A stretch of 64,000 nt of DNA from Candidatus Acidiferrales bacterium (GTDB taxonomy: Bacteria; Acidobacteriota; Terriglobia; Acidiferrales; UBA7541), in contig DASYYH010000003.1 of assembly GCA_035934015.1 (NCBI GenBank), positions 248,001 to 312,000 of the forward strand, in the 5' to 3' direction. Position numbers and translations under genes: made by a program. This document shows positions 18,504 through 26,781 of this stretch, piece after piece; position 1 is the stretch's first letter, and the number at the start of each line of letters is the position of its first letter. The notes below the pieces were generated by a model. The model ran no database searches. It was not told the DNA's origin and saw only the letters and a list, made by a program, of their open reading frames with translations.

Positions 18504-20252
18504 CTATTCGTGGCGTTCGTAAACGACGCGCCCGCCGGTAATGGTCATATCAACGGGCGTGCGAAGCAGTTCCGGGGGCGCGACGGTCAAAATGTCAACG
18601 GGATAGACAACAATGTCGGCAAACATGCCGGGCTTGATCTGGCCTTTGCGGTTTTCTTCAAATTCGCCATAGGCCGAGCCGACGGTGTAATCGTAAATGC
18701 AGACGTCGCGAGGAAGCTTTTCCTGAGGCTCCCATCCTCCCGGAGGACCTCCTTTCGGCAGTTCGCGGGTCACGCATGCATAAATCCCTCGAAGCGGATT
18801 GATGCCTTCGACCGGAAAATCGGTGCCGAAGGCGAGATGCACACCATGCCGACTCATCGTATTCCAAGCGTATGCGCCCTTGGACCGCTCCGGGCCAATT
18901 CGCGCACCGGCCCAGCGCTCGTCATCGAGCAGATGGACGGGCTGCATCGAGGCGATCACATTCAGATCGGCAAAGCGACGAAAATCACCAGGGGCCACGA
19001 TTTGTGCGTGCTCGACGCGATCGCGGCGGTCGCGCGGGCCATTCGCCGCGCGCACGGCAGCAAATGCATCGAGCGCAACACGGTTGGCCTTATCACCGAT
19101 GGCGTGGAAATTCAGCTGGAAACCGGCACGGTCGCGTTCAATCGACATCTCGTTCAGCTGCAGCGGGTCCATGCGTAAAATGCCGGAGGTGGATGGGTCA
19201 TCAGAATAGGGCGAAAGCATAGCGGCCGTGCGAGAGCCGAGGGAACCATCCATAAAGGCCTTGAGAGAACCTGTTTTCAGCCACGGATCCGTCATTCCGC
19301 CCTCGCGACGCTCCTCCTCGAGCTTGGAGAGCGGCTCCGTGAAGGTGAGCCATTCCGTGATGCGCAACGGCAACTTCCCTTCCTGCTTGAGGTCACGGTA
19401 AATCAGAAAATCCTGCCAGGTCGAATAGTCCTGAATTGACGTCACGCCTTGCGAGACAGCCTCCGCAAGGGCAAGTTCAATCGCACGACGGCGACGCTCT
19501 GGGCTGGCGGGAGGAACGTGGCGATAGACGAGACTCATTGCGGCATCTTCTTCCAACATTCCGTCCGGCTCGCCGGTCTGGTGGTCAAGTGCGATATGGC
19601 CGCCGCGGGGATCCTTTGTGTTTTTAGTGATTCCGGCAATCTTCAGTGCAAAAGAATTTGCGACAGCAACGTGACCATCAACGCGGCCGAAGATCATTGG
19701 GTGATCTTTTGAAACAGCATCGAGGTCCCATCGCGTCGGGAATTTCTTCTCCGGCCACAGCGTGTGATCCCAACCGCTTCCTGTAATCCACTCGCCCGGC
19801 TTGTAGTTTTTCAGCGAATCGCGGATGCGCTGCTGAAATTCGGCCAGCGATTTCGCACCTTCGAAATTAACGGTCAGCTTGGCCATTCCGCCCGAAGCCA
19901 AATGCGTATGGGCATCATTGAATCCAGGCATAGCGAAGCGGCCATGCAAATCGACGACTCGCGTTTGCGCGCCAATAAATGGGCGGATTTCTTCGTCGGA
20001 GCCCACAGCGATGATTTTTTCGCCGCGAATCGCAATGGCCTGCGCGTGCGGATGAGCGGATTCAACCGTATAAATATTGCCGTTTATAAGCGCCAAATCA
20101 GCTAGCGCTTCGGCGCGTGGTGCAGCATTCATGCTCTTCCCCATTTCAGGATTGATTCGACGGCGCGGGCGGCCATTCGATGAAATACAAAGAAACGCTC
20201 CGCAGAGGACAGCGGTGATGAAAGCAACAAATGAAATCAACCGGCGCAACAA
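18504..20252 (-). CDS. Exported amidohydrolase (YtcJ / Amidohydro_3 type)
   Basis: 582 aa if started at the TTG at 20252, two bases after the M20 peptidase stop; this gives a hydrophobic signal-anchor (LISFVAFITAVLCGAFLCI). Later ATGs (residues 38 and 42) are alternatives. Metal-site motifs of the superfamily: FNDAHTHLASGG near residue 113 (HxH), GRVDGHVAVANS, FHAIGDKANRVALDAF, VEHAQIV and the final FGTDFPVEG aspartate. Amidohydro_3 members hydrolyse N-acyl or cyclic amide substrates. It probably acts in the periplasm on a peptide-derived or formylated compound; the substrate is unknown. It is close-packed with an M20 peptidase, which suggests amide scavenging. Confidence 0.87.
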   Translation of the reverse strand: MLRRLISFVAFITAVLCGAFLCISSNGRPRRRINPEMGKSMNAAPRAEALADLALINGNIYTVESAHPHAQAIAIRGEKIIAVGSDEEIRPFIGAQTRVVDLHGRFAMPGFNDAHTHLASGGMAKLTVNFEGAKSLAEFQQRIRDSLKNYKPGEWITGSGWDHTLWPEKKFPTRWDLDAVSKDHPMIFGRVDGHVAVANSFALKIAGITKNTKDPRGGHIALDHQTGEPDGMLEEDAAMSLVYRHVPPASPERRRRAIELALAEAVSQGVTSIQDYSTWQDFLIYRDLKQEGKLPLRITEWLTFTEPLSKLEEERREGGMTDPWLKTGSLKAFMDGSLGSRTAAMLSPYSDDPSTSGILRMDPLQLNEMSIERDRAGFQLNFHAIGDKANRVALDAFAAVRAANGPRDRRDRVEHAQIVAPGDFRRFADLNVIASMQPVHLLDDERWAGARIGPERSKGAYAWNTMSRHGVHLAFGTDFPVEGINPLRGIYACVTRELPKGGPPGGWEPQEKLPRDVCIYDYTVGSAYGEFEENRKGQIKPGMFADIVVYPVDILTVAPPELLRTPVDMTITGGRVVYERHE

Positions 20253-20254
20253 AT

Positions 20255-21571
20255 TCAGGGTTGGACTCCTGCGATACCAAATAACGTTAACAGCACGCGC
20301 TTCATACCGAGTTCGCGGCCAGCGGGATCATACCACTCCTCAAGCGAATGCGAACCGCCGCCCTGCCCTCCTCCACCAATGGCAATGGCGGGAATGCCGA
20401 TGGAAAGCGGAAGATTCGCGTCCGTCGAAGAACGCTCAAGACGGGAACGATTGCCGAGAAAGCGATCGGCGTTTTCGATTGCAGCGAGCAAGGGCGAATC
20501 CGCGGGCAATTTTCCTCCCGGACGGATGCCGATCACGCTAATCTTCAGACGCAACTTTTCGCTTCCCGGAGCCGCAGCAGCCATTTCCTGATCCACGGCA
20601 CTGGCAAACTTGCTGCGAATTTCGTTGTCCATCCGCAAAAGCTCGGCCTCGTCCTCCGAGCGCAAATCCACCTTTACGCTGGCTTCGGCAGGAATCGAAT
20701 TTATAGAATTGCCACCTTCCATCACGCCAAAGTTGAATGTGGTGCGCGGCTCCTCAGGAACAGGCGCAGCGGAAAATTGAACGATTCCACGCGCGAGGGC
20801 TGTGATCGGATTCGGCGATCCGAAATCCGACCAGCTATGGCCGCCGGGACCGGTGACTTGAATATCCAGACGACGGGAGGCAAGACCGATCGTCGTGACG
20901 TAATCCGCCGCGGCGCCGTCAAGAGCGATCACGGCGCGGACGCGGTTTTTGTATTCGTTCATCAACGCGCGAATACCACGAAGATTGCCTTCGCCTTCCT
21001 CGCCCACCCCAGCTACAAATAAAATCGATGTCTGAGGCTTGAGATGCGCTTGGTCGATGGCGCGTAAAACGCCGGCCATTGAGGCGAGGCCGGCACCGTC
21101 GTCGGAGATTCCGGGAGCTTCGAGGCGACCTTTCACGCGCTTCACGCGCACGTCGGTACCGGCCGGAAAGACCGTATCGAGATGTGCGACGACGAGTACG
21201 ACATCGTCACCGACCGAGCCAGCGAGCTCGCCGATGACGTTGCCAACCGAATCCGTATGCACATCCAAGCCATTGGCATGGAACAGCTTGGCCAGATACG
21301 CGCCGCGCTCTTGCTCGTGGAACTCCGGTGCGGGGATTTCCGTGATGGCGACCTGTTGATCGGTGACCCAGCCTGCATTGCCGTCGAGCCAGGCCAAGGC
21401 ACGAGCGACGCGCTTGTCCTGAGCGAGAGCGTCAATGGGATTTGCGGGACGCGCAGTCAGCGTTGCCATGGCCAACAGGATACCCAACAGCGGAAAAACT
21501 TTCACGGATTTAATGAGGGCGCGTTTTCCCGATGCATTGCATACGATGCGCGGATTTTGCGAGGAATGCAA
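20255..21571 (-). CDS. M20-family metallopeptidase (PepT/dipeptidase-like), exported
   Basis: 438 aa from a TTG at 21571, directly after the stop of the LeuA-like gene; a GTG at 21505 just before the hydrophobic VKVFPLLGILLAMATL is an alternative start. Zinc-site motifs: VVAHLDTVFP (His and catalytic Asp), ISDDGAGLASM (bridging Asp), GVGEEGEGNLRG (catalytic Glu pair), and GGGGQGGGSHSLEEW (C-terminal His). A dimerisation domain with VTGPGGHSWSDFG lies between. M20 enzymes cleave terminal residues from di- or tripeptides, or deacylate amino acids. A signal sequence suggests it works outside the cytoplasm. Middle of the truA-EamA gene run. Confidence 0.88.
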   Translation of the reverse strand: MHSSQNPRIVCNASGKRALIKSVKVFPLLGILLAMATLTARPANPIDALAQDKRVARALAWLDGNAGWVTDQQVAITEIPAPEFHEQERGAYLAKLFHANGLDVHTDSVGNVIGELAGSVGDDVVLVVAHLDTVFPAGTDVRVKRVKGRLEAPGISDDGAGLASMAGVLRAIDQAHLKPQTSILFVAGVGEEGEGNLRGIRALMNEYKNRVRAVIALDGAAADYVTTIGLASRRLDIQVTGPGGHSWSDFGSPNPITALARGIVQFSAAPVPEEPRTTFNFGVMEGGNSINSIPAEASVKVDLRSEDEAELLRMDNEIRSKFASAVDQEMAAAAPGSEKLRLKISVIGIRPGGKLPADSPLLAAIENADRFLGNRSRLERSSTDANLPLSIGIPAIAIGGGGQGGGSHSLEEWYDPAGRELGMKRVLLTLFGIAGVQP

Positions 21572-21572
21572 A

Positions 21573-22826
21573 TTACGATTTCACAGACGCTTTTCGGTGT
21601 GTCGCTGAGCCGCACAAAGCGAAAAGTTCCGCGTCCGTCAAAATGCGTTCAGCATGCTTAGCCGCCTGAAAGATACGGTCGACAAGTTCGTCCGTAGCAT
21701 CGATGCCTTGCTTCTCGAGCCAATACGTCACGTTTGAACGTCCGCTCAGTGGGCCGATCTCAATGATCTGCTCCAGGCCGAAGAGATGCGCGGGTACGCC
21801 GCTATAAACGGAGTCGGCCAAAACGACATCGTTCTTGCGATAAGCCTTAATGATCGCCGCGGCGTGAACTCCCGTTGCAGTGCGAAACGCATCGCGACCA
21901 ACAACGGGATAATTCGGCGGAACAACTGTGCGCGTCGCGCGCGCGACGGTTTCGGAATACTCCTTGAGCTTCGATAGGTCACGATCGATTAAACCCATCA
22001 GTCGAAGATTCACGAGCATCAGTTCCATAGGCGTATTGCCCACACGCTCGCCCAGCGAATTTGCGGCAGCGTGAACCTGATGCGCGCCAGCGGCCAAGGC
22101 CGCAAGAGAGTTAGCGATGGAAAGGCCGCGGTCATTGTGCCCGTGCCAGTCGACGCGAATTTTCTCGCCGGAGGGCTTCACAACTTCATCGATTGCAAAC
22201 TTCACAAGATTGAATGCGCCGCGAGGCTCAGCGTGGCCGACTGTGTCACACAGCACAATTGAGCGCGCACCGCAGCGAATCGCGGTGGAATAAAGAATCT
22301 TGACCGTCTCGGGGTCGGCGCGCGTTGTGTCCTCCGTGACGTACATAACGGGAAGACCTTCCGACACGGCGAACTTCACTGCGTCCTCGGTAGTGCGCTG
22401 GAGATGTTCAACCGTCCAGTCTTCTACCAGGCGGCGAATGGGGCTTGAGCCGAGAAACGTCGCGGCTTCGATGGGCATTCCGACTTTTTGCGAGATTTCG
22501 GCGATGGGATGAATGTCGTTTTTGTGGGTGCGCGCGGCGCAATTGGGCCGAACGCGCATGCGACAAGACACAATTTCTCTTGCCAGCGCTTCGGTGTCCG
22601 CATACGCGCGCGGGCCAGCGCCAGGGAGGCCGATGTTGACCGTATCGATGCCGAGGTCTTCCATCAGATGCAAGATTTGAATTTTTTCCTGAATGCTCGG
22701 ATCGCGCACGGAGGGGTTTTGCAAACCATCGCGGAGCGTTTCATCGTTGAGCAGTACATTGCGCCCCGCCGGAATGTCGCGACCTTTGACGATGTTCCAG
22801 TCGTAGATTAAATCGCTATGATTCAC
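21573..22826 (-). CDS. LeuA-like DRE-TIM metallolyase-family enzyme without allosteric domain
   Basis: 417 aa from a GTG at 22826 with GGAG 6 nt upstream; it overlaps the aldehyde dehydrogenase end by 11 bp. The catalytic TIM barrel has LLNDETLRDGLQNPSV (Arg32, Asp33), CDTVGH, and the metal-binding HGHNDRG; then ANSLGERVGNTPMEL, a motif of isopropylmalate/homocitrate/citramalate synthases. The C-terminal subdomain (TATGVHAAAIIKAYRKND) is present, but the LeuA regulatory domain of about 130 residues is missing. The motif RDGLQN is the form usual in HMG-CoA lyases; synthases normally have RDGEQ. So it condenses acetyl-CoA with a 2-oxo acid or performs a related reaction, and the substrate is not clear. 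Genes around it are not leucine genes. Confidence 0.8.
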   Translation of the reverse strand: MNHSDLIYDWNIVKGRDIPAGRNVLLNDETLRDGLQNPSVRDPSIQEKIQILHLMEDLGIDTVNIGLPGAGPRAYADTEALAREIVSCRMRVRPNCAARTHKNDIHPIAEISQKVGMPIEAATFLGSSPIRRLVEDWTVEHLQRTTEDAVKFAVSEGLPVMYVTEDTTRADPETVKILYSTAIRCGARSIVLCDTVGHAEPRGAFNLVKFAIDEVVKPSGEKIRVDWHGHNDRGLSIANSLAALAAGAHQVHAAANSLGERVGNTPMELMLVNLRLMGLIDRDLSKLKEYSETVARATRTVVPPNYPVVGRDAFRTATGVHAAAIIKAYRKNDVVLADSVYSGVPAHLFGLEQIIEIGPLSGRSNVTYWLEKQGIDATDELVDRIFQAAKHAERILTDAELFALCGSATHRKASVKS

Positions 22827-24459
22827 TTCGACTCCGCCCGTTTTTTTGCAGCTTTGAAACGCTGCTTTTCTTGAACAGCGGCATAAGGGAGTGACCGTCG
22901 CTCGCCAGCGCCTTCCAGCGACGCTTCCAACTTGGCGCAAAAAGTATTTCGGTGAAACGATCTGCGGCCTCGGCGAGGCCATCGCCATAACGATACCACC
23001 AGGACTTCGCAAAACGCGGCAGCAACTCCTCATCGATGTACTTGACATGAGTCATTTCAAGCAAGCCGAGACGGGAGTGCACGCAGCCCCAGCCGCTGGC
23101 CCCGCGGCCGCCATGAGGAGCTTCGGTAATTCCGTAATAACTGGCGACATCGTTGACCATTACAGAACCGACGCGAAGGCGAGAGGCTATCTTGCGCCCA
23201 CGTTTCGCGTCGCGAGTCCACACGCTCGCGGAAAGGCCAAATTCGGAATCGTTTGCGAGGCGCACGGCTTCTTCATCGTCAGCGACAACTTGAATCGCGA
23301 TGACCGGGCCGAAGGTCTCTTCGCGCATCAGGCGCATGGTATGGTCAACGTTTGTGACAATCGCGGGAGCGAAGAAATTCGCGCCCTTTTCCGGGGTGCG
23401 CACGCCGCCAATCAGAATTTTTGCGCCGCGCGATACGGCGTCCCGCAAGTGCGCCTCGACTCGCTTAATTTCCTGATTGCGCACCATCGGGCCGATGTCC
23501 GTTTCCGAATCAGCGCTCGAACCTACTCTTAGATCCCTGGTTTTCTGCACGCATAGAGAAATGAATCGCTCGGCTACAGATCGTTCGACATATACGCGCT
23601 CAACGGACAAACACGCTTGACCACAGTTTGTGAGGCCACCCCAGATAGCCGCGCTCGATGCCTTATCGATATCCGCGTCGGCAAGAACGACCATGGGATC
23701 CTTGCCGCCAAGCTCAAGAACAGACGGAATTAGATGGCGGCCACACGCTTCGGCGACTTTACGTCCGGTCTCCACGCTCCCAGTAAAGAACACCTTGTCC
23801 GGGCGAGCCTCAATGATTGCGGCGGCGACTTTTCCTCCGCCCTGCAAGACCTGAACAAGCCCTGCAGGCGCACCTGCCTGTTCGCTGAGTTCGGCTATGA
23901 GAGCGCCTGTCCACGAAGTCAATTCCGACGGCTTGAGGAGCACAGCGTTGCCAGCAACGAGCGCGGGAAGAACCTGGCCAACAGGAATGGCGAAAGGATA
24001 GTTCCATGGAGTGATCAGTGCGACGAGGCCTAGAGGTTCATAATGAAGCCGCCCACGCTTGGACTTGAGCGCCCAATTGTGATGAGGAACTCGCTGCGTC
24101 TTGAGGAAGCGGGGAGACTTCCGAGCAAGGAAGCCCGCGGTGTCGAGCGCGAACATGATTTCGGCAAAAATGGCTTCGGCACGCGGCTTCCCTGTCTCCC
24201 GGCAAATGATATCGGCAATTTCTTTGCGGCGATCAAAAACAACTGCTTGAAATCTGCGGAGGAATGCGCAGCGTTCGGTAAGAGACATCGCCGCCCAAGC
24301 GGCTTGAGCCTCACGCGCACGAACAAATGCCGCGGGAATCTCCGAAATCGGTATCGCCTGAAACCGCGCGATTTGCTCAGCGGTTGCGGGGTCAATGGAC
24401 TCAACAAAATCACCCGATTGCGCGGGACTCTTGCGAAAAGATGGAGCGGGAGCGCTCAT
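22816..24459 (-). CDS. NAD(P)-dependent aldehyde dehydrogenase
   Basis: 547 aa, longer than the usual ~480 because of a C-terminal extension of about 60 residues ([21 protein letters not shown] and on). The start follows the truA stop by 13 bp. Active-site features: ITPWNYPF, the nucleotide-binding [12 protein letters not shown], catalytic Glu249 in VLELGGKDP and nucleophile Cys283 in [12 protein letters not shown]. It oxidises an aldehyde to the acid with NAD(P)+. The extension is typical of a subgroup of ALDHs near the succinate-semialdehyde or phenylacetaldehyde-like clades; no substrate can be assigned. Its stop overlaps the LeuA-like start by 11 bp, which implies translational coupling. 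Confidence 0.92.
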
Positions 24460-24472
24460 GGTTACGTGAATT

Positions 24473-25249
24473 CTAACCGATTTTCCATGACTCAGGGTAC
24501 TTCAAGGACACGAGATAAAGGCCATCTGGAGGAACGGTGGGACCAGACCGCGAGCGGTCGCGCGCCTCAAAGAGATTTGGGATGTCGCTGGGGCACAGTT
24601 TACCGCGGCCGACGTCAAGCAGCGTGCCGACGATCTTTCGGACCATGTAACGCAAAAATGAGCGACCGGTGACTAGGTAGACGAGCTCTTCCTGCTCTGG
24701 TTTTCGCGCGAATTCCGAACAAAGGATTATGCGCACCGGAGAGCGATCCTTATCTACATCTTCCGATCCGGAGGACGCAGCGAAAGACGTGAAATCGTGC
24801 TCGCCTTCAAAAAGCTTTGCGGCATTAACCATCGCCGCCTCATTCAGCGGATAGGGATAGTGCAAGACGCGGCGAAAATCGAAAGGAGAAAGAACAGAGC
24901 CGCGAAAAATGCGGTAGTGATACGTCTTTTCGAGCGCCTGCCAGCGTGCGTGAAAATCCGGGCCAAATTCTTCGGCAGCCACGACGCGAATCGTTGACGG
25001 CAACAAGGCATTGCATGCGCGCTGCAATTCATCAGCCGCGAGAGCAGATTGTGTTCTAAAGCTGGCCACCTGACCCAAGGCGTGGACTCCGGTGTCTGTG
25101 CGGCTTGCTCCGTGGATGGAGATATGCTCTTGCGTGATCTTTCGAATGACATCGGTCAGCGAACCCTGAATCGTCGCCAGCCCGGGCTGGATCTGCCAGC
25201 CGTGAAACGCCGAGCCGTCATAGGCAAGCGTCAGCTTGATATTTCGCAT
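24473..25249 (-). CDS. truA: tRNA pseudouridine(38-40) synthase TruA
   Basis: 258 aa from MRNIKLTLAYDGSAFHGWQI, a standard TruA start. The catalytic Asp52 lies in HGASRTDTGVHALGQ. Further family pieces: ARWQALEKTYHYRIFRG, FTSFAAS and RSFLRYMVRKIVGTLLDVGRG. It converts uridines at positions 38-40 of the anticodon stem to pseudouridine in the cytoplasm. Normal length and all key residues intact. It leads the minus-strand run into the aldehyde dehydrogenase; the dioxygenase-like gene lies 51 bp upstream. The metabolic genes behind it share no obvious pathway with tRNA modification. Confidence 0.96.
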   Translation of the reverse strand: MRNIKLTLAYDGSAFHGWQIQPGLATIQGSLTDVIRKITQEHISIHGASRTDTGVHALGQVASFRTQSALAADELQRACNALLPSTIRVVAAEEFGPDFHARWQALEKTYHYRIFRGSVLSPFDFRRVLHYPYPLNEAAMVNAAKLFEGEHDFTSFAASSGSEDVDKDRSPVRIILCSEFARKPEQEELVYLVTGRSFLRYMVRKIVGTLLDVGRGKLCPSDIPNLFEARDRSRSGPTVPPDGLYLVSLKYPESWKIG

Positions 25250-25300: not shown

Positions 25301-25894
25301 CTATGCGGCATGAATCGTGCGGGAGACGCGCGGCTTCAGCCGCTTATATGGGAAGTACGTGAGACCCATGCAGACCGGTTCAAAGTCGTCTTCGATGCCG
25401 CTGCCGGTATAGTTCACGTGTGCGCGCTCCGAACGCGTAATGAAACGAATTGCGCGGAAGCGCCAGTCAGCACGGAGATCGAACCAGTGGCGAACACCAG
25501 GTCCCACTGAAAGCAGATCTCCTGGCTCGAGCTCCACCATGACGACGGGTCGATCGATAGGATGAATATTACAGAAGCCGCGTGCCGCCAGTACGAAATG
25601 CGCTTCGTCTTCGTTGCGCCAGTGCTCCCGCCTGAAATTCGCGAGCATTTCTTCGAATCCGCGAGAGTCGGGAGACAGATCGACGATATCGTAGCCAGCG
25701 AAGCCGCGTGCTGTTTTGTATTCTTCCAATTGAGGTCTATAGGCGGCCAAAACCTGACGGGCTGGAGCCCACACAGAAACAGGGTTTCGCGGCGACCATC
25801 GAGCATAATCCACGTCAATTTCGGCAAGGAGAAGTTGAATCTCCCGGGGCATGATGAAAGTGCGGCCGACTTGTGGAACCTTAACGATCGCCAC
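25301..25894 (-). CDS. Acireductone dioxygenase (ARD)-like cupin with altered metal site
   Basis: 197 aa from a GTG at 25894. Cupin of the ARD family, which in methionine salvage oxidises the acireductone with Fe2+ or Ni2+. The fold motifs are clear: NFRREHWRNEDEAHFVLAARG, then ELEPGDLLSVGPGVRHWFDL. The usual metal ligands are H-x-H-x-x-x-E and a later His. Here His91, Glu97 and His136 are kept, but the second His of the H-x-H is Arg93; the codon is CGC, one base from CAC. A His at 99 might compensate. No other methionine-salvage gene is near. It could be inactive, or changed in chemistry. Possibly the first gene before truA (51 bp). Confidence 0.75.
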   Translation of the reverse strand: MAIVKVPQVGRTFIMPREIQLLLAEIDVDYARWSPRNPVSVWAPARQVLAAYRPQLEEYKTARGFAGYDIVDLSPDSRGFEEMLANFRREHWRNEDEAHFVLAARGFCNIHPIDRPVVMVELEPGDLLSVGPGVRHWFDLRADWRFRAIRFITRSERAHVNYTGSGIEDDFEPVCMGLTYFPYKRLKPRVSRTIHAA

Positions 25895-26108: not shown

Positions 26109-26696
26109 TCAGGTTTCGGCGCGAACAAAATGGCTTCCCGGCTTGGTGATCGCTTCTCCTGCACGGCATTGGGGACAATCGAACTGCTCGTAGCTTGGGA
26201 TGTTGATCTCGATCAAGGCGCGAGCGGGAACAGCGAGTTCAAGCCGCCCGCCGCTGCGGTCAATCAGGGCGGCTGCGGCGACTACGCGTCCGCCTGTCTG
26301 TTCGACAATGCTCATCGTCTCGCGGGTGGAACCGCCGGTCGTCCATACATCTTCAACGACGAGAACTTTTTCCGCTGGTTGCAGAGTAAACCCACGGCGC
26401 AGGGCCATGCGTCCTGAGGAATCTCTTTCGACAAAAATGGCACGAACTCCAAGTCCGCGTGCGACCTCTTGCCCGACAAGAACGCCGCCAAGCGCTGGAG
26501 AAACGACGCAATCGATCGCAGAATCGCGGAATTTATCCGCCAGGGCGCGGCCCAGTCGTTCTGCAAGGTCAGGGTACTGGAGGACAAGGGCACATTGGAC
26601 ATAGGTCGAACTGTGACGCCCACTGGATAGTTCGAAATGGCCGTGCCTTACCGCGCCAGCGCGCTCAAATATGGACCTGGCTTCATCCGCCTGCAT
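26109..26696 (-). CDS. pyrE: Orotate phosphoribosyltransferase PyrE
   Basis: 195 aa from ATG 26696, chosen because GGGAG sits 7 nt upstream; other in-frame starts at 26705 and 26759 are less well placed. The PRPP-binding motif VLVVEDVWTTGGST is intact, and FELSSGRHSSTYVQC, SPALGGVLVGQEVA and RGFTL fit bacterial OPRTases. It adds ribose-5-phosphate to orotate in pyrimidine synthesis. The C-terminus ends with a Cys pair region (FDCPQCRAGEAITKPGSHF) seen in a subgroup of OPRTases. No other pyr gene is beside it. Divergent from the TolC-like gene. Confidence 0.94.
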   Translation of the reverse strand: MQADEARSIFERAGAVRHGHFELSSGRHSSTYVQCALVLQYPDLAERLGRALADKFRDSAIDCVVSPALGGVLVGQEVARGLGVRAIFVERDSSGRMALRRGFTLQPAEKVLVVEDVWTTGGSTRETMSIVEQTGGRVVAAAALIDRSGGRLELAVPARALIEINIPSYEQFDCPQCRAGEAITKPGSHFVRAET

Positions 26697-26752
26697 CGCC
26701 CGCATCTCCCAGAGATAAAAGCGTCTCGATAGCCTAGGGCAGCCAGGAATCG

Positions 26753-26781
26753 TTGTCAATGCAAGGCATCAATGTTAAACT
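26753..26781 (+). promoter_or_regulatory. Candidate promoter for the TolC-like gene
   Basis: TTGTCA (26753-26758) and TAAACT (26776-26781) are 17 bp apart, in the divergent region between pyrE and the TolC-like gene. The -35 matches five of six consensus bases and the -10 four of six. It would leave a long 5' leader of about 200 nt. Weak support. Confidence 0.35.

Follow-up and report, generated by a model that had tools for sequence, protein, structure and literature searches.

We hold with moderate confidence that the gene at positions 25301..25894 (minus strand) of the window, the 64,000-nucleotide stretch of a Candidatus Acidiferrales genome analyzed here, is a relic mtnD that has lost its pathway and is now either drifting or re-used. 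Its product is a homologue of acireductone dioxygenase (ARD) in which, in this one genome (G000), a metal-ligand His of the family has been replaced by Arg (Arg93).

The open reading frame starts with GTG and is translated into 197 aa, and it is an orphan mtnD homologue, the only gene of family PF03079 in the source genome. The protein scores 58.4 bits against Pfam PF03079 (cut-off 27), the proteins of its four congeners score 59-75 bits against the same model, and a phmmer comparison matched it to the solved ARDs 4qgl (4e-19) and 1zrr from Klebsiella oxytoca (2e-17). The PF03079 score and the matches to solved structures agree with the original prediction that this is an ARD homologue, and on sequence similarity its assignment to the ARD homology family is solid. 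As an enzyme, the product should not be filed as acireductone dioxygenase, because a defining ligand, for which we tested, is absent at the position of His98. Automatic annotation would label this gene acireductone dioxygenase, which it probably is not. The single-sequence AlphaFold model of the protein had a mean pLDDT of 34. The close-relative scan of contigs with the ARD protein alone gave no match, and no relatives of the protein were found in viral contigs.

Acireductone dioxygenase binds Fe2+/Ni2+ through three His and one Glu (His96, His98, Glu102 and His140). The corresponding motif of the homologue reads E90-H91-W92-R93-N94-E95-D96-E97-A98-H99-F100, and the alignment with 1zrr pairs H91 with His96, R93 with His98, E97 with Glu102, H99 with Arg104 and H136 with His140 (K. 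oxytoca numbering). The motif had originally been read in the same way (Arg93 encoded by CGC, with His91, Glu97, His136 and His99 present), to which we add that the gene lies on the minus strand; the metal ligand that was then described as lost is indeed the counterpart of K. oxytoca His98. The search with the ARD protein covered 396 phylum genomes, 399 class genomes and the complete set of five from the genus, and we read the best-matching homologues in an alignment (n=59) of the ARD homologue, 54 proteins from other genera and four from congeners. The three remaining ligands are invariant (59/59), namely the His of codon 91 (25622..25624, minus; register from the 1zrr alignment), the Glu of codon 97 (25604..25606, minus) and the His of codon 136 (25487..25489, minus). 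Position 93 (CGC in the window; 25616..25618, minus) is His in all 58 other aligned homologues, that is, in the 54 from other genera and in the four congeners, where the codon is CAT in every case. The congener orthologues are 77% (G566) and 53-59% (the others) identical to the ARD homologue, and the closest of them, that of G566, has the motif EHWHDEDEAHF against EHWRNEDEAHF in G000. The four-ligand set is therefore complete in all four congeners and broken in G000, where Arg stands at the His98 position. A DNA pattern for the Arg form, admitting ARD context, matched in one of the 396 phylum genomes, G000 itself. Within the phylum set Arg93 is private to this genome, and it is seen in one assembly. 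Given that the other 58 aligned homologues have His without exception, it appears to be a real departure beyond chance in the G000 sequence. Codon 141 (25472..25474, minus) holds another change private to G000, again at a site that is otherwise invariant: it is Arg here and Cys in 58/58 other homologues.

The original prediction had proposed a check of close relatives for the Arg, with His in their orthologues as the outcome contrary to its interpretation, and His was found in all of them, including the 77%-identical congener. There is accordingly no support for the Arg as the hallmark of a recruited cupin family, as every orthologue has His93; of the earlier interpretation as a whole, a protein outside its pathway remains and a family defined by the Arg does not. 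We also considered Arg93 as the fixed trait of a subfamily and rejected it, since all other homologues, congeners included, have His. A literature search for an ARD homologue naturally without a ligand found none, which is weak evidence because limited literature was covered.

The residue at codon 99 (CAT, His; 25598..25600, minus) also departs from the family. Relatives have a conserved Arg two residues past the Glu (54/54 non-genus homologues); in G000 it is His99, and this Arg is not proven essential for ARD. His99 occurs in three of the five genus genomes (G000, G566 and G419), and G566 and G419 carry His93 as well; G587 and G553 have His93 together with Arg99. Because two congeners have His93 and His99 side by side, comparison of the sequences indicates that His99 did not arise to replace the lost His93; it predates Arg93 or is independent of it.

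The pathway genes of methionine salvage were searched in 17 genomes, including the five of the window's genus. mtnA is present in 17/17 (in G000 at 407 bits, cut-off 279). mtnB scored above its model cut-off in eight of the 17, and mtnC in those same eight, which are all the non-genus genomes of the set with mtnD and in each of which mtnB-mtnD-mtnC is contiguous (8/8). None of the five genus genomes, all of which keep the ARD homologue, has mtnB or mtnC above cut-off, and MtnW is absent from all five, so that G000 possesses mtnA from the methionine-salvage gene set and lacks mtnB and mtnC (or mtnW). The earlier observation that no other methionine-salvage gene is near thus holds and is exceeded, as mtnB and mtnC are missing genus-wide. 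The best MtnB-like protein in G000 reaches 89-91 bits, short of the MtnB cut-off of 137, and gives higher scores against models of sugar-phosphate aldolases or decarboxylases; it looks like another class II aldolase-family enzyme. Phosphorylase-family (nucleoside phosphorylase) proteins are present and could open methylthioadenosine, and the gene set would accord with disposal by an aldolase-type route, for example the DHAP shunt.

The ARD gene lies 214 bp downstream of pyrE (26109..26759, minus; TIGR01367, 211 bits) and 51 bp upstream of truA (24473..25249, minus; TIGR00071, 182 bits), with which it is probably co-transcribed. The order pyrE-ARD-truA on one strand is found in 5/5 genus genomes, with TolC and methylmalonyl-CoA mutase alongside wherever the contig extends far enough, and in three other genomes of the family (G481, G453 and G448) pyrE and truA are directly adjacent with no ARD gene between them. 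In two genomes of the sister genus g217 (G469 and G560) mtnB-mtnD-mtnC stands directly before truA. Therefore, the ARD gene is probably the remnant of an mtnBDC operon formerly before truA, from which mtnB and mtnC were deleted. In the tree, the five genus proteins form one clade (100/100) on a long branch outside the others, and a forced grouping was not rejected, either with the sister-genus mtnD (AU p 0.36) or with the mtnD of the whole family (0.20). As the tree places the genus outside and a shared clade merely goes unrejected, we regard the operon-remnant history as plausible, not more. In G469 no pyrE turned up in the 5.5 kb that precede mtnB, and for this reason we only infer an ancestral pyrE-mtnBDC-truA order.

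On the other side, truA opens a cluster (18504-25249, minus) that continues with an aldehyde dehydrogenase, whose best NCBIfam match is succinic semialdehyde dehydrogenase, under cut-off, and then with an isopropylmalate/homocitrate synthase-like protein, an M20-type peptidase and an amidohydrolase-like protein. Several family genomes (G481, G448) share this order, and others share part of it. Within the genus the cluster is disrupted in different ways: in G419 truA and the synthase-like gene have no aldehyde dehydrogenase between them, and in G587 nothing of the cluster follows truA.

The ARD reading frame is intact in all five genus species. We calculated dN/dS by the Nei-Gojobori method, for which synonymous sites were near saturation so that the values are rough. 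Between G000 and G566 the ARD gene showed a dN/dS of 0.19 (bootstrap 0.125-0.289), and its neighbours 0.071 (pyrE), 0.060 (truA) and 0.054 (TolC); between G587 and G553 the ARD gene showed 0.107, not clearly above its neighbours. The gene is under purifying selection, which is looser in the G000/G566 line. A pseudogene as the full account was rejected, given the intact frame in five species and dN/dS of 0.11-0.19. Since G000 has 12 private changes and its sister 15, no acceleration specific to the Arg93 lineage is visible.

Four residues that are invariant in the 54 other homologues have been lost genus-wide (Phe108, Pro131, Phe152 and Trp158), and Arg129, which is Arg in 50/54 of the others, is Ser in the genus. 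The equivalent of Trp158 (K. oxytoca Trp162) is replaced in G000, G566, G587 and G419 and gapped in G553. The genus-wide losses of Trp158, Phe108, Pro131 and Arg129 fit a changed or fading job better than Arg93 alone does. Codons 153-160 are the counterpart of the Trp162 turn of K. oxytoca, which has a part in the Fe/Ni switch and is conserved in relatives, though not proven essential. They are replaced or shortened in 5/5 genus members, and four of the five keep all four metal ligands despite the altered turn; an altered turn with intact ligands could offer a useful natural experiment on that switch. ARD-like matches of lower strength (E 1e-21 to 1e-10) were also seen at G376:C176 and C205, both in one genome, and at G286:C1:3988-4293, and may represent additional ARD homologues that are divergent or split.

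It has been reported for K. oxytoca ARD that mutation of a ligand abolishes metal binding and activity (PMC8315008). The His98Ser variant binds no metal, stays folded with an Fe-ARD-like fold and exceeds wild-type Fe- or apo-ARD in stability; Trp162 lies ~7 A from the metal in Ni-ARD (PMC4019311). Given that His98Ser binds no metal, Arg93 should, by analogy, abolish the ARD metal site and leave a folded cupin. Such a loss would be tolerable in G000 because the methionine-salvage pathway is gone.

Taken in order, the events that we propose begin with an ancestor that would have had mtnB-mtnD-mtnC upstream of truA. The genus would then have lost mtnB and mtnC, which left the mtnD homologue between pyrE and truA, where it stands at present. 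Without MtnB plus MtnC or MtnW, no acireductone would be made from methylthioadenosine, and therefore the original ARD reaction would have no known substrate in the genus. The protein has since diverged as a cupin under reduced, still purifying selection, and in the G000 species this divergence has reached the replacement of a metal-ligand His by Arg. If K. oxytoca His98Ser is a guide, what is left would be a cupin that still folds but has no ARD metal centre. The present state is most likely that of a drifting protein whose metal-dependent activity is irrelevant, or of one with a weakly constrained, metal-free secondary role. Against a pure relic, five diverged species have kept the reading frame intact and dN/dS lies well under 1, so something is still selected.

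That same genus-wide conservation at the locus under purifying selection would also be expected of a recruited metal cupin, in which the ARD fold is re-used throughout the genus for another substrate and, in the G000 species, His99 takes the place of His93, giving a site again of three His and one Glu (residues 91, 97, 99 and 136). His99 stands where Arg is otherwise invariant (54 non-genus homologues), it lies two residues past Glu97, probably on the same strand and with the same facing, and its presence in three of five genus members means that a spare His was available to the lineage that later lost His93. However, His93 and His99 occur together in G566 and G419, so that His99 did not arise as a compensation, G587 and G553 have His93 with Arg99, and the side chain of Arg93 would probably occupy the place of the metal ligand. 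We therefore consider a moved ligand unlikely. The fuller version, in which MtnD was re-used genus-wide outside methionine salvage, the spare His99 came first and the ligand then shifted from 93 to 99 in one species, giving a rearranged three-His-one-Glu centre and new chemistry, seems to us very doubtful.

It is also improbable that Arg93 is a sequencing or assembly error, or the mutation of one strain, in a species that has an ordinary His93. The Arg is found in one assembly alone, and a single transition can separate His and Arg codons (CAC to CGC), but the codon is CAT in all four congeners and so differs from CGC at two bases; moreover, nothing else in the frame or the adjacent bases points to an error, and the same gene carries C141R, which is likewise private and at an otherwise invariant site. 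A further alternative is a still-working ARD that tolerates the Arg and is fed by promiscuous enzymes, for example an unspecific phosphatase together with a class II aldolase-like protein. In its favour, mtnA is present, as are proteins of the nucleoside phosphorylase family, and the class II aldolase-family protein reaches 89-91 bits with the MtnB model. However, this protein falls below the MtnB cut-off of 137 and matches sugar-phosphate aldolase/decarboxylase models better, the genus genomes have no MtnC or MtnW, and ligand mutants of ARD are inactive (PMC8315008). We consider such an enzyme highly improbable.

Read as a relic mtnD without its pathway, the gene belongs to a graded series, from relatives with the full mtnBDC operon, through four congeners with an orphan and complete ligands, to the single species that has lost a ligand. 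The series shows how a pathway enzyme behaves once its pathway has been deleted. We regard the case as a modest example of enzyme decay or re-use, with no new system and no new enzyme class.

The closest known counterpart is MtnD, the E-2/E-2' enzyme of K. oxytoca (PDB 1zrr, 2hji; also 4qgl). The ARD homologue is homologous to it over most of its length, keeps the cupin motifs with the equivalents of His96, Glu102 and His140, and likewise has Trp-Phe after the last ligand. It differs in having Arg for His98 and His for Arg104, in the replacement of the Trp162 region and of the Phe108 and Pro131 equivalents, and in its genome, where mtnB, mtnC and mtnW are missing. With the mtnB-mtnD-mtnC operon of relatives (e.g. 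G469, G291) the locus shares an mtnD homologue and, in G469 and G560, the truA neighbour, whereas in the window's genus the mtnD homologue alone remains. The K. oxytoca His98Ser laboratory variant (PMC4019311) has a replacement at the equivalent ligand position, but that Ser was engineered, whereas the Arg here is natural and sits in an already diverged protein. Finally, according to PMC3765361, seed storage proteins and metal-independent epimerases are metal-less cupins in which the metal ligands have likewise been lost on the cupin barrel; compared with these, the loss described here would concern a single species and a member of the ARD family that retains three of the four ligands.
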